A stretch of 27,462 nt of DNA from a virus: positions 1-27,462 of IMG/VR virus record IMGVR_UViG_3300031951_000994. One strand, given 5' to 3'. The notes beneath the pieces were generated by a model that saw only the letters and a program-made list of their open reading frames with translations, was not told where the DNA came from and searched no databases. The position numbers and the translations under genes were made by a program. Each line of letters opens with the position of its first letter. Position 1 is the first letter of the stretch. Below, piece by piece: positions 5,678-23,423 of this stretch.

Positions 5678-6415
5678 ATGAAAGGCTCTAAAGCCAAAGT
5701 TGCCGTGTGTATTCCTACGCGTGGCGAAATGGAAGTAGGTACAGCGTTTGACCTAGCCCTGATGTGTGGTTATGACTCACGATTCAGAAGCAAAGGCCAG
5801 CAAAGTTTATACACGGTGGCCGGAACCCTGATATTTGACCAGCGCGAGAAGTTGGCGCAGACAGCAATAGACGAAGGTGCAGATTATATCCTTTGGGTGG
5901 ATGCAGATATGCGGTTCCCAAAGAATACGATTGAGCACTTGATCTCACGGGATAAAGACATTGTTGGCGCTAACGCTACAACCCGCGTCCCGCCGATCCA
6001 CGGCACAGCCAAGAACGCCTGGATTAACAAGAAAGAAAAGACGATCAACTGGCAGAAGATTAGTTCTAAAGACAAAAAAGGTTTGGAGCGTGTCACCGCA
6101 ATTGGCTGCGGTGTGATGATGGTCAAGCGTGAGGTTTTCCTCAAAACTCCGCGACCGTGGTTTTGGTTTGAGCAACTGCCTGGCGAGAAACTGCTGGGCG
6201 AGGATGTTTACTTCTGCGTGAGAGCGCATGACGCAGGATTTGAGACATGGGTGGATCACGACTTCTCTAACATGATCGGCCATGTCGGTTCATACACTTT
6301 TGGATGGCACGATATAGCCAGTAAGGAAAACGATGGCTCTGACGAGTTACTCTACACTAAAGACGGCAGTTGCGAACTATCTTGGGCGCAGCGACCTAAC
6401 CAGCCAGATTCCTGA
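5678..6415 (+). CDS. GT-A type glycosyltransferase in the head gene block
   Basis: Predicted nucleotide-sugar-dependent glycosyltransferase, 245 residues. The N-terminus KVAVCIPTRGE is the first beta strand of a GT-A (family 2-like) fold. ILWVDADMRFP at residues 71-81 carries the metal-binding DxD (Asp75, Asp77). GCGVMMVKREVF (143-154) and LLGEDVYFCVRAHDAGF (172-188) match the acceptor and catalytic-base part of the fold, and GHVGSYTFG follows at 201-209. The start at ATG 5678 has TGAGGAG upstream. The last 83 nt overlap the adaptor gene in another frame, an unusually long overlap for this window. Placement between capsid and adaptor suggests action on a virion protein or on phage DNA or host glycan late in infection; this is inference. 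A second glycosyltransferase is encoded at 25985-26668. Confidence 0.85.
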   Translation: MKGSKAKVAVCIPTRGEMEVGTAFDLALMCGYDSRFRSKGQQSLYTVAGTLIFDQREKLAQTAIDEGADYILWVDADMRFPKNTIEHLISRDKDIVGANATTRVPPIHGTAKNAWINKKEKTINWQKISSKDKKGLERVTAIGCGVMMVKREVFLKTPRPWFWFEQLPGEKLLGEDVYFCVRAHDAGFETWVDHDFSNMIGHVGSYTFGWHDIASKENDGSDELLYTKDGSCELSWAQRPNQPDS

Positions 6416-19737: not shown

Positions 19738-19908
19738 ATGACCACAGAAGCCACAAAACACGCCGTAGACGCCCTGTCTGTCGCAACCGTCATCGGAACC
19801 CTAGCCGACATACTTCCGGCCATTGCAGCCCTTTTTACGATTGTTTGGACTAGCTTTCGTATCTACGAGACCAAAACTGTTCAAAGCTGGCTAAAGCGTA
19901 AGAAATGA
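19738..19908 (+). CDS. Small holin-like membrane protein
   Basis: A 56-residue protein beginning MTTEATKHAVDALSVATVIG. The hydrophobic core LADILPAIAALFTIVWTSF covers about residues 22-40 and could form one long or two short membrane helices. The end is basic (SWLKRKK). Size, charge pattern and placement at the start of the lysis region fit a small phage holin that opens the inner membrane for the endolysin; similar sequences starting with an E-A-T-K-H motif occur in aquatic phages. It begins immediately after the chaperone stop, and its TGA overlaps the next ATG (ATGA). A second holin candidate lies at 21717-22223, so which one times lysis is unresolved. Confidence 0.75.
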   Translation: MTTEATKHAVDALSVATVIGTLADILPAIAALFTIVWTSFRIYETKTVQSWLKRKK

Positions 19909-20348
19909 CCACCATCGCTGCTCGCGCATCTACGGGAGAAATTGCCGCAGATTCGATGGTCAGCGGCGATGATTCCTTCTATCTCGTGCAAAAACTGAGA
20001 CTTGGCAAGGGTTCTATATACGGGGCTTGCGGAGATTGGGATAAATGCTTGAAAATGCTACAGGTTTTGGAGTCCGGTGGGGAACTGGACTCCGACACCG
20101 ACGTTACAGTTCTTGAGATCAGAAATGACGGCCTTTGGATCTATGAGGGGACCGTGATTCCTGCTCGCATCAAGAACGACTTTTGGGCAATTGGAACTGG
20201 GGCTAACTTTGCTATCGCTGCCATGCACCTGGGATTAAGTCCCGCAGAGGCAGTAAAACTAGCCTGTCAGTACGACACCAGTTCTCACGAGCCCGTAGAC
20301 GAAATGCGGCTAGGAGGAGTTCGTGGCAGGAAAAAAAATACCGGATGA
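19905..20348 (+). CDS. HslV/proteasome-like Ntn hydrolase
   Basis: A 147-residue protein that aligns by eye with the proteasome beta/HslV fold. After removal of Met1 it starts TTIAAR, like mature HslV (TTIVSVR), giving an N-terminal Thr nucleophile. AADSMVSG supplies an Asp at position 15 (HslV Asp17). QKLRLG supplies a Lys at position 29 (HslV Lys33). GACGDWDKCLKML resembles the HslV glycine-rich strand and helix, and WAIGTGANFAIAAMHLG with SPAEAVKLACQYD resembles the HslV AIGSGG helix region. It is shorter than HslV (about 175 residues). No HslU-like ATPase is in the window. It may be an autonomous peptidase or amidase, and its substrate is unknown. The start overlaps the holin-like stop (ATGA), and its last 26 nt overlap the next gene. 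Confidence 0.82.
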   Translation: MTTIAARASTGEIAADSMVSGDDSFYLVQKLRLGKGSIYGACGDWDKCLKMLQVLESGGELDSDTDVTVLEIRNDGLWIYEGTVIPARIKNDFWAIGTGANFAIAAMHLGLSPAEAVKLACQYDTSSHEPVDEMRLGGVRGRKKNTG

Positions 20349-21273
20349 AACAATAATAGAAGCCTTCAAACGTCTTGGCAGTCCATCAAAGGTTGCTAAA
20401 GAGCTAGAGATGGATGTTACAAATGTCTACAAAAGACGAGACACCATTCAAAGACGACTAGGAATCAATCTTCCAAGTTTCAATGCCAAGCAGGATTCTG
20501 TTGTCAAAACCATCATCCCCGAGAACAAACGGATCATTGAGCATCAGGTAGAGAGTGGTCATGTGTTCATAGCCTCAGACTGTCACTACTGGCCCAACGA
20601 AGTCACCGTTGCCCACAAAGCATTTACCACCTTACTAAAAGAGTTCAAGCCACAAACAATCATCCTAAACGGGGATGTGTTTGACGGCTCTCGTATCTCA
20701 CGACACGAGCCTCTCATGGGAACCAACCCTCCGACCCCCAAGCAAGAGATTGAAGCCTGCCAGGACCGTCTAGATGAGATTCGTAACGCTAGTAAGAACG
20801 CTCGTTGCTTGTGGACTTTTGGCAATCACGATGTCCGGCTGCACCGCTATATTGCTATCAACGCTACTGAACTCTCCGACTTCCCAGACCTCTTCTCATA
20901 CTTTCCAGGCTGGCACACGGGTTGGCGAGTAGACATAAACAACGAAGTCATAGTCAAGCATCGTTGGCATAACGGTGTCCACGCGACTTACAACAACGCA
21001 CTAAAAGCAGGCAAGACCCTAGTTACAGGTCACCTGCACAAACTACAAGTAACCCCCTACTCTGACTATACGGGCCGTAGATACGGTGTAGACACGGGAA
21101 CGCTTGCAGAACCTTACGGCGAGCAGTTCGTTTACACAGAGGGCAATCCTGTCAACTGGTGCTCAGGATTTGCAGTTCTTACATTCAAACACGGAAAACT
21201 ATTACCACCAGAACTCTGTGAAGTTATCGATGGGGTAGCATACTTCAGAGGAGAGTCAGTTACGGGAGAATAA
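20323..21273 (+). CDS. HTH-metallophosphoesterase fusion
   Basis: A 316-residue calcineurin-like phosphoesterase. Residues 5-45 form a helix-turn-helix (IIEAFKRLGSPSKVAKELEM, then DVTNVYKRRDTIQRRLG). The catalytic domain shows the metal-binding series SDCHYW (Asp86, His88), LNGDVFDG (Asp118), FGNHD (Asn168, His169), KHRWH (His213, His216) and TGHLH (His237, His239). This is the full family signature, so it should be an active phosphodiesterase or phosphatase on nucleic acid or nucleotides. GTG 20323 is set by a near-perfect AGGAGG six bases upstream, within the end of the previous gene. The HTH suggests DNA targeting. Such proteins are common in aquatic phages, but the substrate is not known. 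Confidence 0.87.
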   Translation: MAGKKIPDETIIEAFKRLGSPSKVAKELEMDVTNVYKRRDTIQRRLGINLPSFNAKQDSVVKTIIPENKRIIEHQVESGHVFIASDCHYWPNEVTVAHKAFTTLLKEFKPQTIILNGDVFDGSRISRHEPLMGTNPPTPKQEIEACQDRLDEIRNASKNARCLWTFGNHDVRLHRYIAINATELSDFPDLFSYFPGWHTGWRVDINNEVIVKHRWHNGVHATYNNALKAGKTLVTGHLHKLQVTPYSDYTGRRYGVDTGTLAEPYGEQFVYTEGNPVNWCSGFAVLTFKHGKLLPPELCEVIDGVAYFRGESVTGE

Positions 21274-21276
21274 ATA

Positions 21277-21717
21277 ATGAGCGACCCGATTGAGACCACA
21301 CGGGCCGCATTAAGCGGAATAAAAGAAGCAGTCAAGGTCGGGCGTGAGATAAAAGAAACCGCTAGGGAGGTCAACACCTTCCTAGACGAAGAAGCCAAAG
21401 CCCGAGTAGCGTGGAAACGCAAGCAGCAACAAATGATGCGGCGCGGCGACATGGTGTGGATGGAGGCGATAGACGAATATCGCATCATCCGTCAAATCCG
21501 AGAAGCAGAGCAGGAAATGTACCGGCAGGTTGAACGCGAGTTTGGCCGCTCTGCTGTATCCGAAGTCAAATCCCTCATCAATCAATTACGCAAAGATCAT
21601 CGGGAGTTGAACGATGAGTTCTACCGCAACCGTATGCAAGCACGACGAGAGTGGAGCGGGATTATCCTCGTTTCTGCAATCGTTTATGGAATTCTCAAAG
21701 CAACAGGAGCTATTTAA
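21277..21717 (+). CDS. Coiled-coil protein with C-terminal membrane helix
   Basis: A 146-residue protein of unknown function in the lysis cassette. Residues 10-125 are almost entirely charged helix (VGREIKETAREVNTFLDEEA; IREAEQEMYRQVEREFGRSA; LINQLRKDHRELNDEFYRNR). The last 20 residues, WSGIILVSAIVYGILKATGA, form one membrane helix. This tail-anchored layout is the reverse of a classical i-spanin, which has an N-terminal anchor. No lipoprotein o-spanin partner is visible nearby. The start lies 3 nt after the phosphoesterase stop, and its TAA overlaps the next ATG. It could be a lysis accessory or a membrane-associated virion protein. Confidence 0.78.
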   Translation: MSDPIETTRAALSGIKEAVKVGREIKETAREVNTFLDEEAKARVAWKRKQQQMMRRGDMVWMEAIDEYRIIRQIREAEQEMYRQVEREFGRSAVSEVKSLINQLRKDHRELNDEFYRNRMQARREWSGIILVSAIVYGILKATGAI

Positions 21718-22223
21718 TGCTGTCATTACTGTCTACCCTTGGCGGGCTGCTCATCTCTGGCTTACCGAAAGTCTTAGACTTTTTTCAAAACAAATCTGAC
21801 CAATCCCACGAGTTAGCCCTTGCCAGACTGCAAAACGAAATGCAGTTGCAGATGGCGGCTCAAGGTTTTGCGGCCCAGGCTAAGATCGAGGAGATCCGAA
21901 CAGACCAGATCGCCATGCAGTCGGAAGCCCAAATGCAAAACGCCGCGCTCGACCATGACAAAAAGATCATGGACAAGGCAAGCAAGTGGGCGGTCAACTA
22001 TGTGGCTACCGTCCGTCCTACCGTGACCTACATCTTTGTGTTGGAACTGGTCCTTATCAACATGGGCCTGGTTTACTTCCTGCTGTTTAAGCAAGGACTT
22101 GGAACCCTGACCGTAGACCAGTTTATCGCCGCTACTGACCTGATCTTCTCCGAGGACGAAATGGCAATGCTTGGCGGTATTATTGGGTTTTGGTTTGGAT
22201 CACGGGGCTGGTCTAAGAAGTGA
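21717..22223 (+). CDS. Membrane protein, 3TM-holin-like candidate
   Basis: A 168-residue membrane protein. The N-terminus LSLLSTLGGLLISGLPKVLDF is a first hydrophobic helix. A Gln/Ala/Glu coiled coil follows (ARLQNEMQLQMAAQGFAAQA). The C-terminal half has RPTVTYIFVLELVLINMGLV as a second helix and MLGGIIGFWFGSRGWSKK as a third. The RPTVTY and FWFGSRGWSKK signatures resemble the 3TM-type phage holin and related membrane proteins. ATG 21717 overlaps the previous TAA (TAATG), and this start is preferred over a longer frame from 21651, which would lie inside the upstream gene. The endolysin start overlaps its TGA. Location supports a lysis role, but a virion role cannot be excluded. Confidence 0.75.
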   Translation: MLSLLSTLGGLLISGLPKVLDFFQNKSDQSHELALARLQNEMQLQMAAQGFAAQAKIEEIRTDQIAMQSEAQMQNAALDHDKKIMDKASKWAVNYVATVRPTVTYIFVLELVLINMGLVYFLLFKQGLGTLTVDQFIAATDLIFSEDEMAMLGGIIGFWFGSRGWSKK

Positions 22224-22726
22224 GAACGTCTGAGAAAGGCATCCACCTGATGCACCAGTTCGAGGGGTATCGTGATCGCCCATATTTGTGCCCAGCCCAC
22301 CTATGGACGTGCGGTTTTGGCGAGGTGCTCTACCAAGACCAAATTCGCCTGCCGATGGTCCGTAAGGATGGTTATACTGGCTTGATTCGCAAGGAATATC
22401 CGTTACGAGATGCAGACAACCGTACCTGGTCCAAGTCGGAGATTGAAGAACGCTTCAAAAATCTCCTCGTTAGTTTTGAGCGTGGTGTTCTTCGACTTGC
22501 TCCCAATCTTACTGGGCGTCAAGGCTTATTTGACGCTTGTGTCGCTCTTAGCTACAACATCGGTGTCGGGGGATTTCAACGCTCTACACTACGCCAGCGC
22601 ATCCTACGAGATGAACCCCTGGATAGCATTGCTGAGGGCTTTTTAGTCTACACAAAGGGCGGCGGCAAGGAGTTACCGGGACTGGTCCGGCGGCGCAAGG
22701 CTGAGGTCGCGCTCTTCCTTGGCTAA
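22220..22726 (+). CDS. Endolysin, GH24 (T4-type) lysozyme with E-C-T active site
   Basis: A 168-residue muramidase that cleaves the peptidoglycan glycan chain. The N-terminal active-site region reads HQFEGYRDRPYLCPAHLWTC, then GFGE. Glu15 is the general acid and Thr30 lies 15 residues later, as in T4 lysozyme. The usual Asp nine residues after Glu is Cys24, giving an E-x8-C-x5-T arrangement; Asp or Cys at this position is known in the family. The middle and end match GH24: FDACVALSYNIGVGGFQRST and GGGKELPGLVRRRKAEVALF. No signal peptide or SAR helix is visible, so export relies on a holin. GTG 22220 overlaps the previous TGA (GTGA). The last 54 nt overlap a convergent gene on the other strand. 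Confidence 0.9.
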   Translation: MRTSEKGIHLMHQFEGYRDRPYLCPAHLWTCGFGEVLYQDQIRLPMVRKDGYTGLIRKEYPLRDADNRTWSKSEIEERFKNLLVSFERGVLRLAPNLTGRQGLFDACVALSYNIGVGGFQRSTLRQRILRDEPLDSIAEGFLVYTKGGGKELPGLVRRRKAEVALFLG

Positions 22727-23017
22727 CTCCAAGATCCTATCTTTAAGCTCGTAGGTCAGTTCCGGCCCGTTCTTAAGCTCAAACTCCTCTAGCCACTTCC
22801 TTCTCTGGGTCTTGGTTTTCATCTTCAGCACATGACGGGCCAGCCCCTCTATCTTTGCCTCGTGCTGGGACATCATTGCTTGTAAGATTTCTTCCTTGGT
22901 TGCCCGAAACTCACCCGTGTCGGGCGTATTCTCCGTGAAGAAGCTCTCTTGCTGCTCGGACCGCTCCTGCCGCAGCTTTCTTAGAAGTAAACCTGCCGAG
23001 ATAAGTTCTTTTGCCAT
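22673..23017 (-). CDS. Unknown protein at the end of the leftward operon
   Basis: A 114-residue charged helical protein of unknown function. It contains KEEILQAMMSQHEAKIEGLA, RRKWLEEFELKNGPELTYEL and KDRILELAKEERD. The 3' end overlaps the endolysin gene tail-to-tail by 54 nt. If translation begins at 23017 (MAKELISAGLLLRKLRQERS), its first 107 nt overlap the 3' end of the HNH-AP2 gene in a different frame. An internal start at about 22876 (MMSQHEAK) would avoid that overlap. The N-terminal stretch looks coherent as a helix, so I keep the longer form, with doubt. No catalytic motif is seen. Confidence 0.65.
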   Translation of the reverse strand: MAKELISAGLLLRKLRQERSEQQESFFTENTPDTGEFRATKEEILQAMMSQHEAKIEGLARHVLKMKTKTQRRKWLEEFELKNGPELTYELKDRILELAKEERDLSLAPPDQSR

Positions 23018-23423
23018 TCGCGCAAACGTGTGCCTCGTAAACCCCTTTTTTCCGCTCGTAGACGCCTTTTATGTTGGTCTTGGTACTCTGATACCTTTTT
23101 GCGTTCCAAAGGTTCTGAGAGCAAATTACGGCCCTTAGATTGGAAATGCGGTTATCGGCCTTCTTGCCATTCTTGTGGTCAATCATCTCGGGAAAAACCC
23201 CATGATGGTAAAGCCATACAAGTCGGTGGGCCATATAATACTTTTTATAAATCGCTATGCGGATGTATCCCTTTCCCCCCACAGATCCGGCTGGCTTGCC
23301 TGCATACCGCTTATTCCACATCTTGTAAGCATTGACCCGCTTAAAGTCCTCGGGGGGCCTGTTGCGCCAAAACAACACTCCCCGCTTGTAGATAAACAGT
23401 CGCCTTACAAAGTCCTTATCCAC
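22911..23423 (-). CDS. HNH homing-type endonuclease with AP2 DNA-binding domain
   Basis: A 170-residue selfish-type endonuclease. The HNH part at residues 62-110 reads YMAHRLVWLYHHGVFPEMID, then HKNGKKADNRISNLR (His66, Asp82-His83, Asn91, Asn95), the common HNH_3 pattern. The AP2 domain at residues 116-168 reads TNIKGVYERKKGVYEAHVCA, then GKRTYLGRFTSKKAAAGAV and GEYARHG, and would recognise the target DNA. Genes of this architecture are mobile in phages. GTG 23423 overlaps the upstream stop by 8 nt and lacks a clear ribosome-binding site, unlike most neighbours. The gene lies between the MazG-like gene and the last operon gene, overlapping the latter by 107 nt. It may be a recent insertion. 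Confidence 0.88.
   Translation of the reverse strand: MDKDFVRRLFIYKRGVLFWRNRPPEDFKRVNAYKMWNKRYAGKPAGSVGGKGYIRIAIYKKYYMAHRLVWLYHHGVFPEMIDHKNGKKADNRISNLRAVICSQNLWNAKRYQSTKTNIKGVYERKKGVYEAHVCANGKRTYLGRFTSKKAAAGAVRAARELLHGEYARHG

Follow-up and report, generated by a model that had tools for sequence, protein, structure and literature searches.

What does a single proteasome-like subunit do in a bacteriophage sequence that lacks a recognisable gene for an unfoldase? The question is raised by the IMG/VR virus record IMGVR_UViG_3300031951_000994, whose positions 1 to 27,462, the whole stretch analysed here, are referred to as the window. A complete open reading frame (ORF) at 19905..20348, on the plus strand as are all window features below unless marked otherwise, encodes a 147-residue protein with a Met-Thr start, a proteasome-like N-terminal-nucleophile (Ntn) hydrolase that almost certainly belongs to the family PPH. 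Throughout one clade of freshwater phages this gene is coupled to that of a metallophosphoesterase with a helix-turn-helix (HTH)-like segment, and in related phages the place beside the phosphoesterase is taken by an unrelated, SprT-like zinc protease. These observations suggest an answer, held tentatively, in which PPH supplies proteolysis to a DNA enzyme.

The ATG of the PPH gene overlaps the stop of the gene upstream (ATGA), and the M-T-T start is retained in nearly all relatives, often with an in-frame stop directly upstream. Since the same start recurs in more than 80 distinct loci, and the median pairwise ratio of nonsynonymous to synonymous substitution rates (dN/dS) is 0.13 among the 62 proteins of the window clade, this is no chance frame. 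The first-pass annotation, made from the sequence alone, described the product as a proteasome/HslV-like Ntn hydrolase, which is borne out; neither of the two results that it named as refuting, a predicted structure without the four-layer Ntn fold or homologues without the conserved Thr2, Asp16, and Lys30, was obtained. Pfam and NCBIfam searches gave no match for the window protein, and a single-sequence phmmer search of the PDB returned only BPH (E 0.22). PHROGs assigns the protein to phrog_1040, 'peptidase HslV family' (E 1.7e-25), and a PDB search with a profile built from an alignment of 12 phage homologues finds BPH (5ovu, 1.2e-10), HslV (2.5e-10), and, at about 1e-8, proteasome beta5/beta8 chains. 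The kinship with proteasomes thus emerges only through PHROGs and the alignment profile. An AlphaFold2 model, computed from 30 sequences all taken from the window and the fetched loci, has a mean predicted local distance difference test score (pLDDT) of 91.6 and a predicted template modelling (TM) score of 0.85, and shows the proteasome beta-type sandwich fold. Its best Foldseek matches in the PDB are HslV (3.9e-9, TM 0.75 by query) and BPH (5.9e-9), while matches among viral models include Caulobacter phage proteins named 'Proteasome subunit beta' and 'Ntn hydrolase'.

The PPH family was named, with no function given, in Fuchs 2021 (PMC8665760). That paper describes it as the first branch of the proteasome family that is truly viral, marked by about 140 residues, the absence of helix H2, an intact Thr1/Asp/Lys/Gly active site, no known unfoldase, and a distribution in tailed phages. 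The window protein shares these properties, and its homologues occur in tailed phages. The model has a single helix (residues 45–57) between its two sheets, and HslV and BPH carry 21–35 extra residues at this region of the profile alignment, from which it follows that H2 is absent. Size, the missing helix, the intact triad, and the phage distribution identify the protein as a PPH rather than an HslV, and phrog_1040 also contains Jerseyvirus and Caulobacter homologues, which fits this membership. The assignment of fold and family is solid, and the window protein is an additional member of an already named, functionally uncharacterised family. No study of phage PPH function turned up in searches of the literature, and the accessible text of PMC8665760 contains no mention of the phosphoesterase coupling, the SprT-like alternative, or the basic tail described below.

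Conservation of the active site was assessed over 103 distinct homologues. Thr2 (19908..19910), the counterpart of proteasome Thr1 and presumed nucleophile after loss of Met1, is Thr in 97 and Ser in six. Asp16 (19950..19952; proteasome and HslV Asp17) and Lys30 (19992..19994; Lys33) are present in all 103 and are aligned with their counterparts in the PDB profile. The probable oxyanion-hole glycine, Gly43 (20031..20033; proteasome Gly47), is found in 101 of the 103, and Asp124 in 98. The G-T-G motif at residues 97–99 (20193..20201) starts helix H3, modelled at residues 100–108; its first glycine is present in 102 homologues, with a gap in the remaining row, and its second in all. The first-pass annotation had picked out this GxG helix region and the catalytic residues, along with the N-terminal Thr-Thr, and all of these stand. 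It also placed the Asp and Lys at the spacing of HslV, which does not: in the mature window protein they fall at D15 and K29, slightly closer together than D17 and K33 in Escherichia coli HslV. Judged from these residues, PPH is very probably catalytically competent.

HslV and the window protein are alike in fold and in the N-terminal TT, Asp, Lys, and Gly, and HslV has a GSG motif of its own. The two are only 16–20% identical, however, and HslV, of about 175 residues with H1–H4 all present, forms a double hexamer, whereas the window protein is shorter by a helix-sized segment. BPH, the best profile match, shares an FWxIGxGxNxAxxAMH stretch with PPH and likewise has no known unfoldase, but it has about 200 residues, and its double ring of heptamers bears a long acidic pore loop (PMC8665760). 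The pore-loop segment is deleted in the PPH profile alignment. RPC has a C-terminal extension domain, while the window protein ends after a 12-residue tail; in Klebsiella phage FBKp34 and in Aeromonas and Vibrio homologues, a PPH-like N-terminal domain is followed by a C-terminal domain of about 150 residues that is absent from the window protein. HslV works with a co-encoded HslU. The earlier remark that the window holds no HslU-type ATPase extends to other phages, as a search for the AAA_2 domain of the HslU/ClpX type was negative in the window and in 19 further phage records with PPH, several of them about 36 kb, and positive in all 14 control genomes. PPH might still make use of an unfoldase of the host.

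Gene neighbourhoods were compared over 82 distinct loci of the window clade; genes in unannotated loci were called with a simple ORF script. The window and most of its relatives are metagenomic fragments. In the window, as the first-pass annotation noted, PPH lies between a 56-residue holin-like protein (19738..19908; no significant family match), whose stop overlaps the PPH start, and the HTH-metallophosphoesterase (20323..21273), which begins with GTG and overlaps the PPH gene by 26 nt. Only the second of these neighbours is constant. An overlap between the phosphoesterase and PPH is seen in all 77 distinct loci that have enough sequence, whereas the holin-like gene precedes it in 24 of 79, and the upstream gene is of at least four unrelated types. 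Most of the alternatives encode an unrelated 53-residue protein with a C-terminal hydrophobic stretch; the others are a g21277-like protein, a 77-residue protein, or, in one locus (L015), an inserted endonuclease-like gene. A phage lysozyme gene (22220..22726; PF00959, 3.5e-24) lies 1.9 kb downstream of PPH in the window, and lysozyme is found within 3.5 kb in 46 of 51 loci, leaving five without. Given the invariant overlap, the inconstant holin-like gene, and the five loci without lysozyme, PPH is linked to the phosphoesterase and not to lysis. The position 'inside the lysis cassette', which the first-pass annotation offered as a functional clue, loses its force, as the upstream gene is exchanged and the homologues of other phages adjoin terminase, portal, or primase genes.

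The PPH–phosphoesterase pair is also kept in three genomes (G010, G011, and G076) in which no homologue of the major head protein of the window was detected. In FBKp34, the extended PPH overlaps a calcineurin-like phosphoesterase, an independent pairing. The pairing in these freshwater phages is well supported, and it is probably a functional one.

The partner consists of an N-terminal three-helix segment followed by a calcineurin-like phosphoesterase domain (PF00149, E 2e-7; phrog_221, 2e-24) with invariant DxH, GD, GNHD, and GHxH motifs. To the eye, and in a model of low confidence, the three-helix segment resembles an HTH; it has no significant Pfam match. A weaker PHROGs match to phrog_7339, 'DNA repair exonuclease' (4.5e-6), accompanies these. 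The phosphoesterase is likely to be a nuclease. An attempt to name its substrate from structure was dropped, as the model was too uncertain.

The protease beside this partner can be replaced. Relatives were picked by their major head protein, a small and mutually related sample in which genome counts are not independent events. Among the 17 IMG/VR relatives searched, PPH is missing in 14, and the phosphoesterase is present in 10. In seven genomes (G034, G036, G038, G039, G043, G058, and G073) and the public podovirus ctn9Y15, the HTH-phosphoesterase adjoins a SprT-like protein of 113–117 residues with an HExxH...H motif, mostly with start/stop overlap. All five SprT-like proteins tested score above the Pfam cut-off (PF10263), and those of G058, G073, and ctn9Y15 fall slightly below it in a six-frame search. 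Over 44 records, 12 have the SprT-like gene and no PPH, all 14 window-group PPH genomes are without SprT-like genes, and the two occur together in none. SprT-like/SPRTN proteins are DNA-dependent metalloproteases that resemble PPH in being small and phage-encoded and in holding the same slot beside the same phosphoesterase, but their fold and zinc chemistry are unrelated, making them analogues and not homologues.

One genome, G033, retains the holin-like gene, g21277, g21651, and the lysozyme gene (77%) in window order, with PPH and the phosphoesterase both missing. Its SprT-like gene lies between the lysozyme and a probable HNH-type gene, and in the head-protein tree it is nested among PPH genomes with starred support. 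Elsewhere, SprT-like genes are coupled to exonucleases: in G032 to a match of phrog_284 (7e-56), and in G035 to a DnaQ/RNase-H-type exonuclease (phrog_403, 2e-90), with G037 the same by sequence. These couplings point to a nuclease role for the phosphoesterase. A further pair of nuclease and protease, again a DnaQ/RNase-H-type exonuclease coupled to a SprT-like protease, was observed at L304:2445-3191 and L305:2513-3256.

A final feature of the protein is its basic C-terminal tail (residues 136–147; 20310..20345), which is set on an acidic body and ends in disorder, with pLDDT below 50 at residues 140–144. The net charge of the tail is +3 to +6 in the 62 window-clade proteins and +4 to +5 in 10 proteins of a second clade, that of DSL-LC04; in other PPHs the tail has a median charge of 0, and the PPH body has a median of -10. 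The tail thus marks both clades in which the PPH partner is an HTH-phosphoesterase or an HNH protein, and we count it in favour of the module proposed below. The window-clade tail is encoded by codons shared with the following gene, an overlap that could restrict their sequence; the gene following PPH in the DSL-LC04 clade lies on the opposite strand, clear of the tail codons.

The sequence and fold suggest how such a protein might act. Host methionine aminopeptidase would remove Met1, exposing a Thr activated by Asp16 and Lys30, with Gly43 in the oxyanion hole, and peptide bonds would be cut by the usual Ntn route; neither a propeptide nor an AAA+ unfoldase/ATPase would be required. Synthesis of PPH would occur late and would be coupled in translation to that of its partner, a DNA-binding (HTH) metallophosphoesterase and probable nuclease. 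The two would form one module, with a protease slot filled either by PPH or by the SprT-like protease, and the partner, here the HTH-phosphoesterase, would supply the specificity. Because the slot is interchangeable, PPH in these phages most likely acts as a protease on behalf of its partner DNA enzyme. The reading put forward here, with some reserve, is that PPH is an active, ATPase-free peptidase serving a late module of a nuclease-like protein plus a small protease.

By analogy, the natural substrates could be proteins stuck on or crosslinked to DNA, although that the substrate is a DNA-bound protein is a rather doubtful extension. Eukaryotic cells clear DNA-protein crosslinks by way of either SPRTN or the proteasome (PMC11098752), and phage SprT-like proteins have been tied to DNA-protein crosslink function by structure (PMC12363180). 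An interchangeable PPH/Spartan-type module of DNA nuclease plus small protease might, somewhat speculatively, be the phage counterpart of these routes, clearing crosslinks or other obstacles without ubiquitin, an unfoldase, or ATP. If true, the nuclease and protease module would assign PPH proteins a physiological role for the first time, and would be a case of targeted proteolysis that a proteasome-type subunit carries out by means of a partner protein in place of an unfoldase ring. What is new is the conserved PPH–phosphoesterase pair with its interchangeable protease slot, which takes the place of the lysis reading; the coupling and the Spartan-like exchange give PPH a concrete, testable job.

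Several points weigh against this proposal. The phosphoesterase model is poor (pLDDT 66), with structural matches that mix phosphodiesterases and SbcD nucleases. Independent swap events are few, as the head-protein tree implies two changes of PPH and the other cases come from unrelated backgrounds. The SprT-like gene is mostly downstream of the phosphoesterase, and PPH is upstream. G040, G041, and three public phages carry the phosphoesterase with neither protease, which shows that it does not need one. Across the 38 records examined, the idea that PPH always lies beside a phosphoesterase failed outside the window clade and the FBKp34-like phages. Lastly, no measured activity of any PPH was found in the literature.

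Outside the window clade, the surroundings of PPH differ from phage to phage. In the DSL-LC04 clade, an HNH gene overlaps the PPH start by 26 nt. The gene for the large terminase subunit (TerL) adjoins PPH in CcrSC, the order in L171 is TerL-PPH-portal, terminase small and large subunits follow PPH in L175, and a probable TerL (weak Pfam match) follows it in L192. A primase lies near PPH in XM05, L178, and L180. Jerseyvirus PPH directly precedes holin, holin, and endolysin genes, Klebsiella myoviruses have the order endolysin-PhoH-unknown-PPH, and the genes around PPH in Rhizobium phages are unknown. A scan of genome contigs for host copies gave one locus, in a Rhizorhabdus metagenome-assembled genome; in this genome and in Rhizobium phage Y65, phosphoesterases are located elsewhere and do not adjoin PPH. 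A general association with nucleases, embracing the HNH and terminase neighbours, was set aside as a pattern without a control, because terminase and HNH genes are common in phages.

This variety of neighbours would suit an accessory protease of the moron type that acts on its own, degrading or clipping proteins of the host during takeover, and is tied to the phosphoesterase only by shared late expression and cassette exchange. The absence of PPH from most of the sampled head-protein relatives likewise argues that it is accessory. Set against such a role, which is possible but which we doubt, are the unbroken phosphoesterase coupling despite exchange of the other neighbour, the loss of the pair together in G033, and the occupation of the same slot by another protease. 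The packaging-module position in unrelated phages (L171, L175, CcrSC, and probably L192) invites a different idea, that PPH is a virion-maturation or head protease, and no prohead protease was noticed in the head region of the window, where genes for a scaffold and a major head protein are present. This role is unlikely, however, since PPH of the window clade sits in a late accessory region at a distance from the head genes, and is missing from relatives whose head proteins are homologous.

Action in lysis, as a protease or amidase on holin, spanin, or cell wall, was the suggestion of the first-pass annotation, and it draws on the holin-like gene and lysozyme flanking PPH in the window and on the endolysin neighbours in Jerseyvirus and the Klebsiella myoviruses. 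It is quite improbable, given that the upstream gene is not of the window's holin-like type in 55 of 79 loci, that lysozyme is not universal, that other PPH loci adjoin primase or terminase, and that the MTTIAARAS start has no export signal obvious by eye. Clear kinship with HslV, together with the lack of an HslU-type gene in the 20 phage records, might mean that PPH borrows the HslU of the host, or that it assembles together with host HslV and so redirects or poisons that enzyme. PPH lacks H2, though, which is among the flanking helices that serve subunit contacts (PMC8665760), and its low identity to HslV also speaks against what is a very unlikely arrangement. The same missing helix recalls connectase, a monomeric, proteasome-like ligase without H1–H2 according to that paper; PPH lacks part of this helix pair, and it is conceivable, at a similarly low level of likelihood, that it is a connectase-like peptide ligase or transferase and not a protease.

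The genes between the phosphoesterase and the lysozyme in the window encode a 146-residue protein of unknown family (g21277; 21277..21717), which lies upstream of PPH in one subclade, and a 190-residue holin-like protein (g21651; 21651..22223; phrog_6637, with a weak holin-family match). After the lysozyme come a probable HNH endonuclease (22911-23423, minus strand) and a small gene (22673-23017, minus strand), which are found in most window-clade loci. A glycosyltransferase-like gene (5678-6415, plus strand), with a weak phrog_12406 match, lies among the head genes. The endonuclease-like gene of L015 encodes 167 residues, stands between the holin-like gene and PPH, and has a stop that overlaps the PPH start; the region concerned begins about 680 bases before PPH and runs up to it. 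The PPH at L059:5001-5441 appears mosaic-like, with part of its C-terminal half (WCMGALAAGASLMKAMEIACNYDTSSRGPIDYMKLGG) sharply divergent from close relatives and the rest matching them. In four large myoviruses of different hosts (L309, L088, L310, and L311), PhoH lies a few genes before the proteasome-like gene, and in the two Klebsiella phages among them an endolysin directly precedes PhoH. One of the four, Aeromonas phage 2L372D (L311:2932-4385; NC_048769.1 119042-120495), carries two different phrog_1040 genes in tandem, with products of 183 and 294 residues that both start X-T, and these possibly form a two-subunit phage proteasome-like enzyme.
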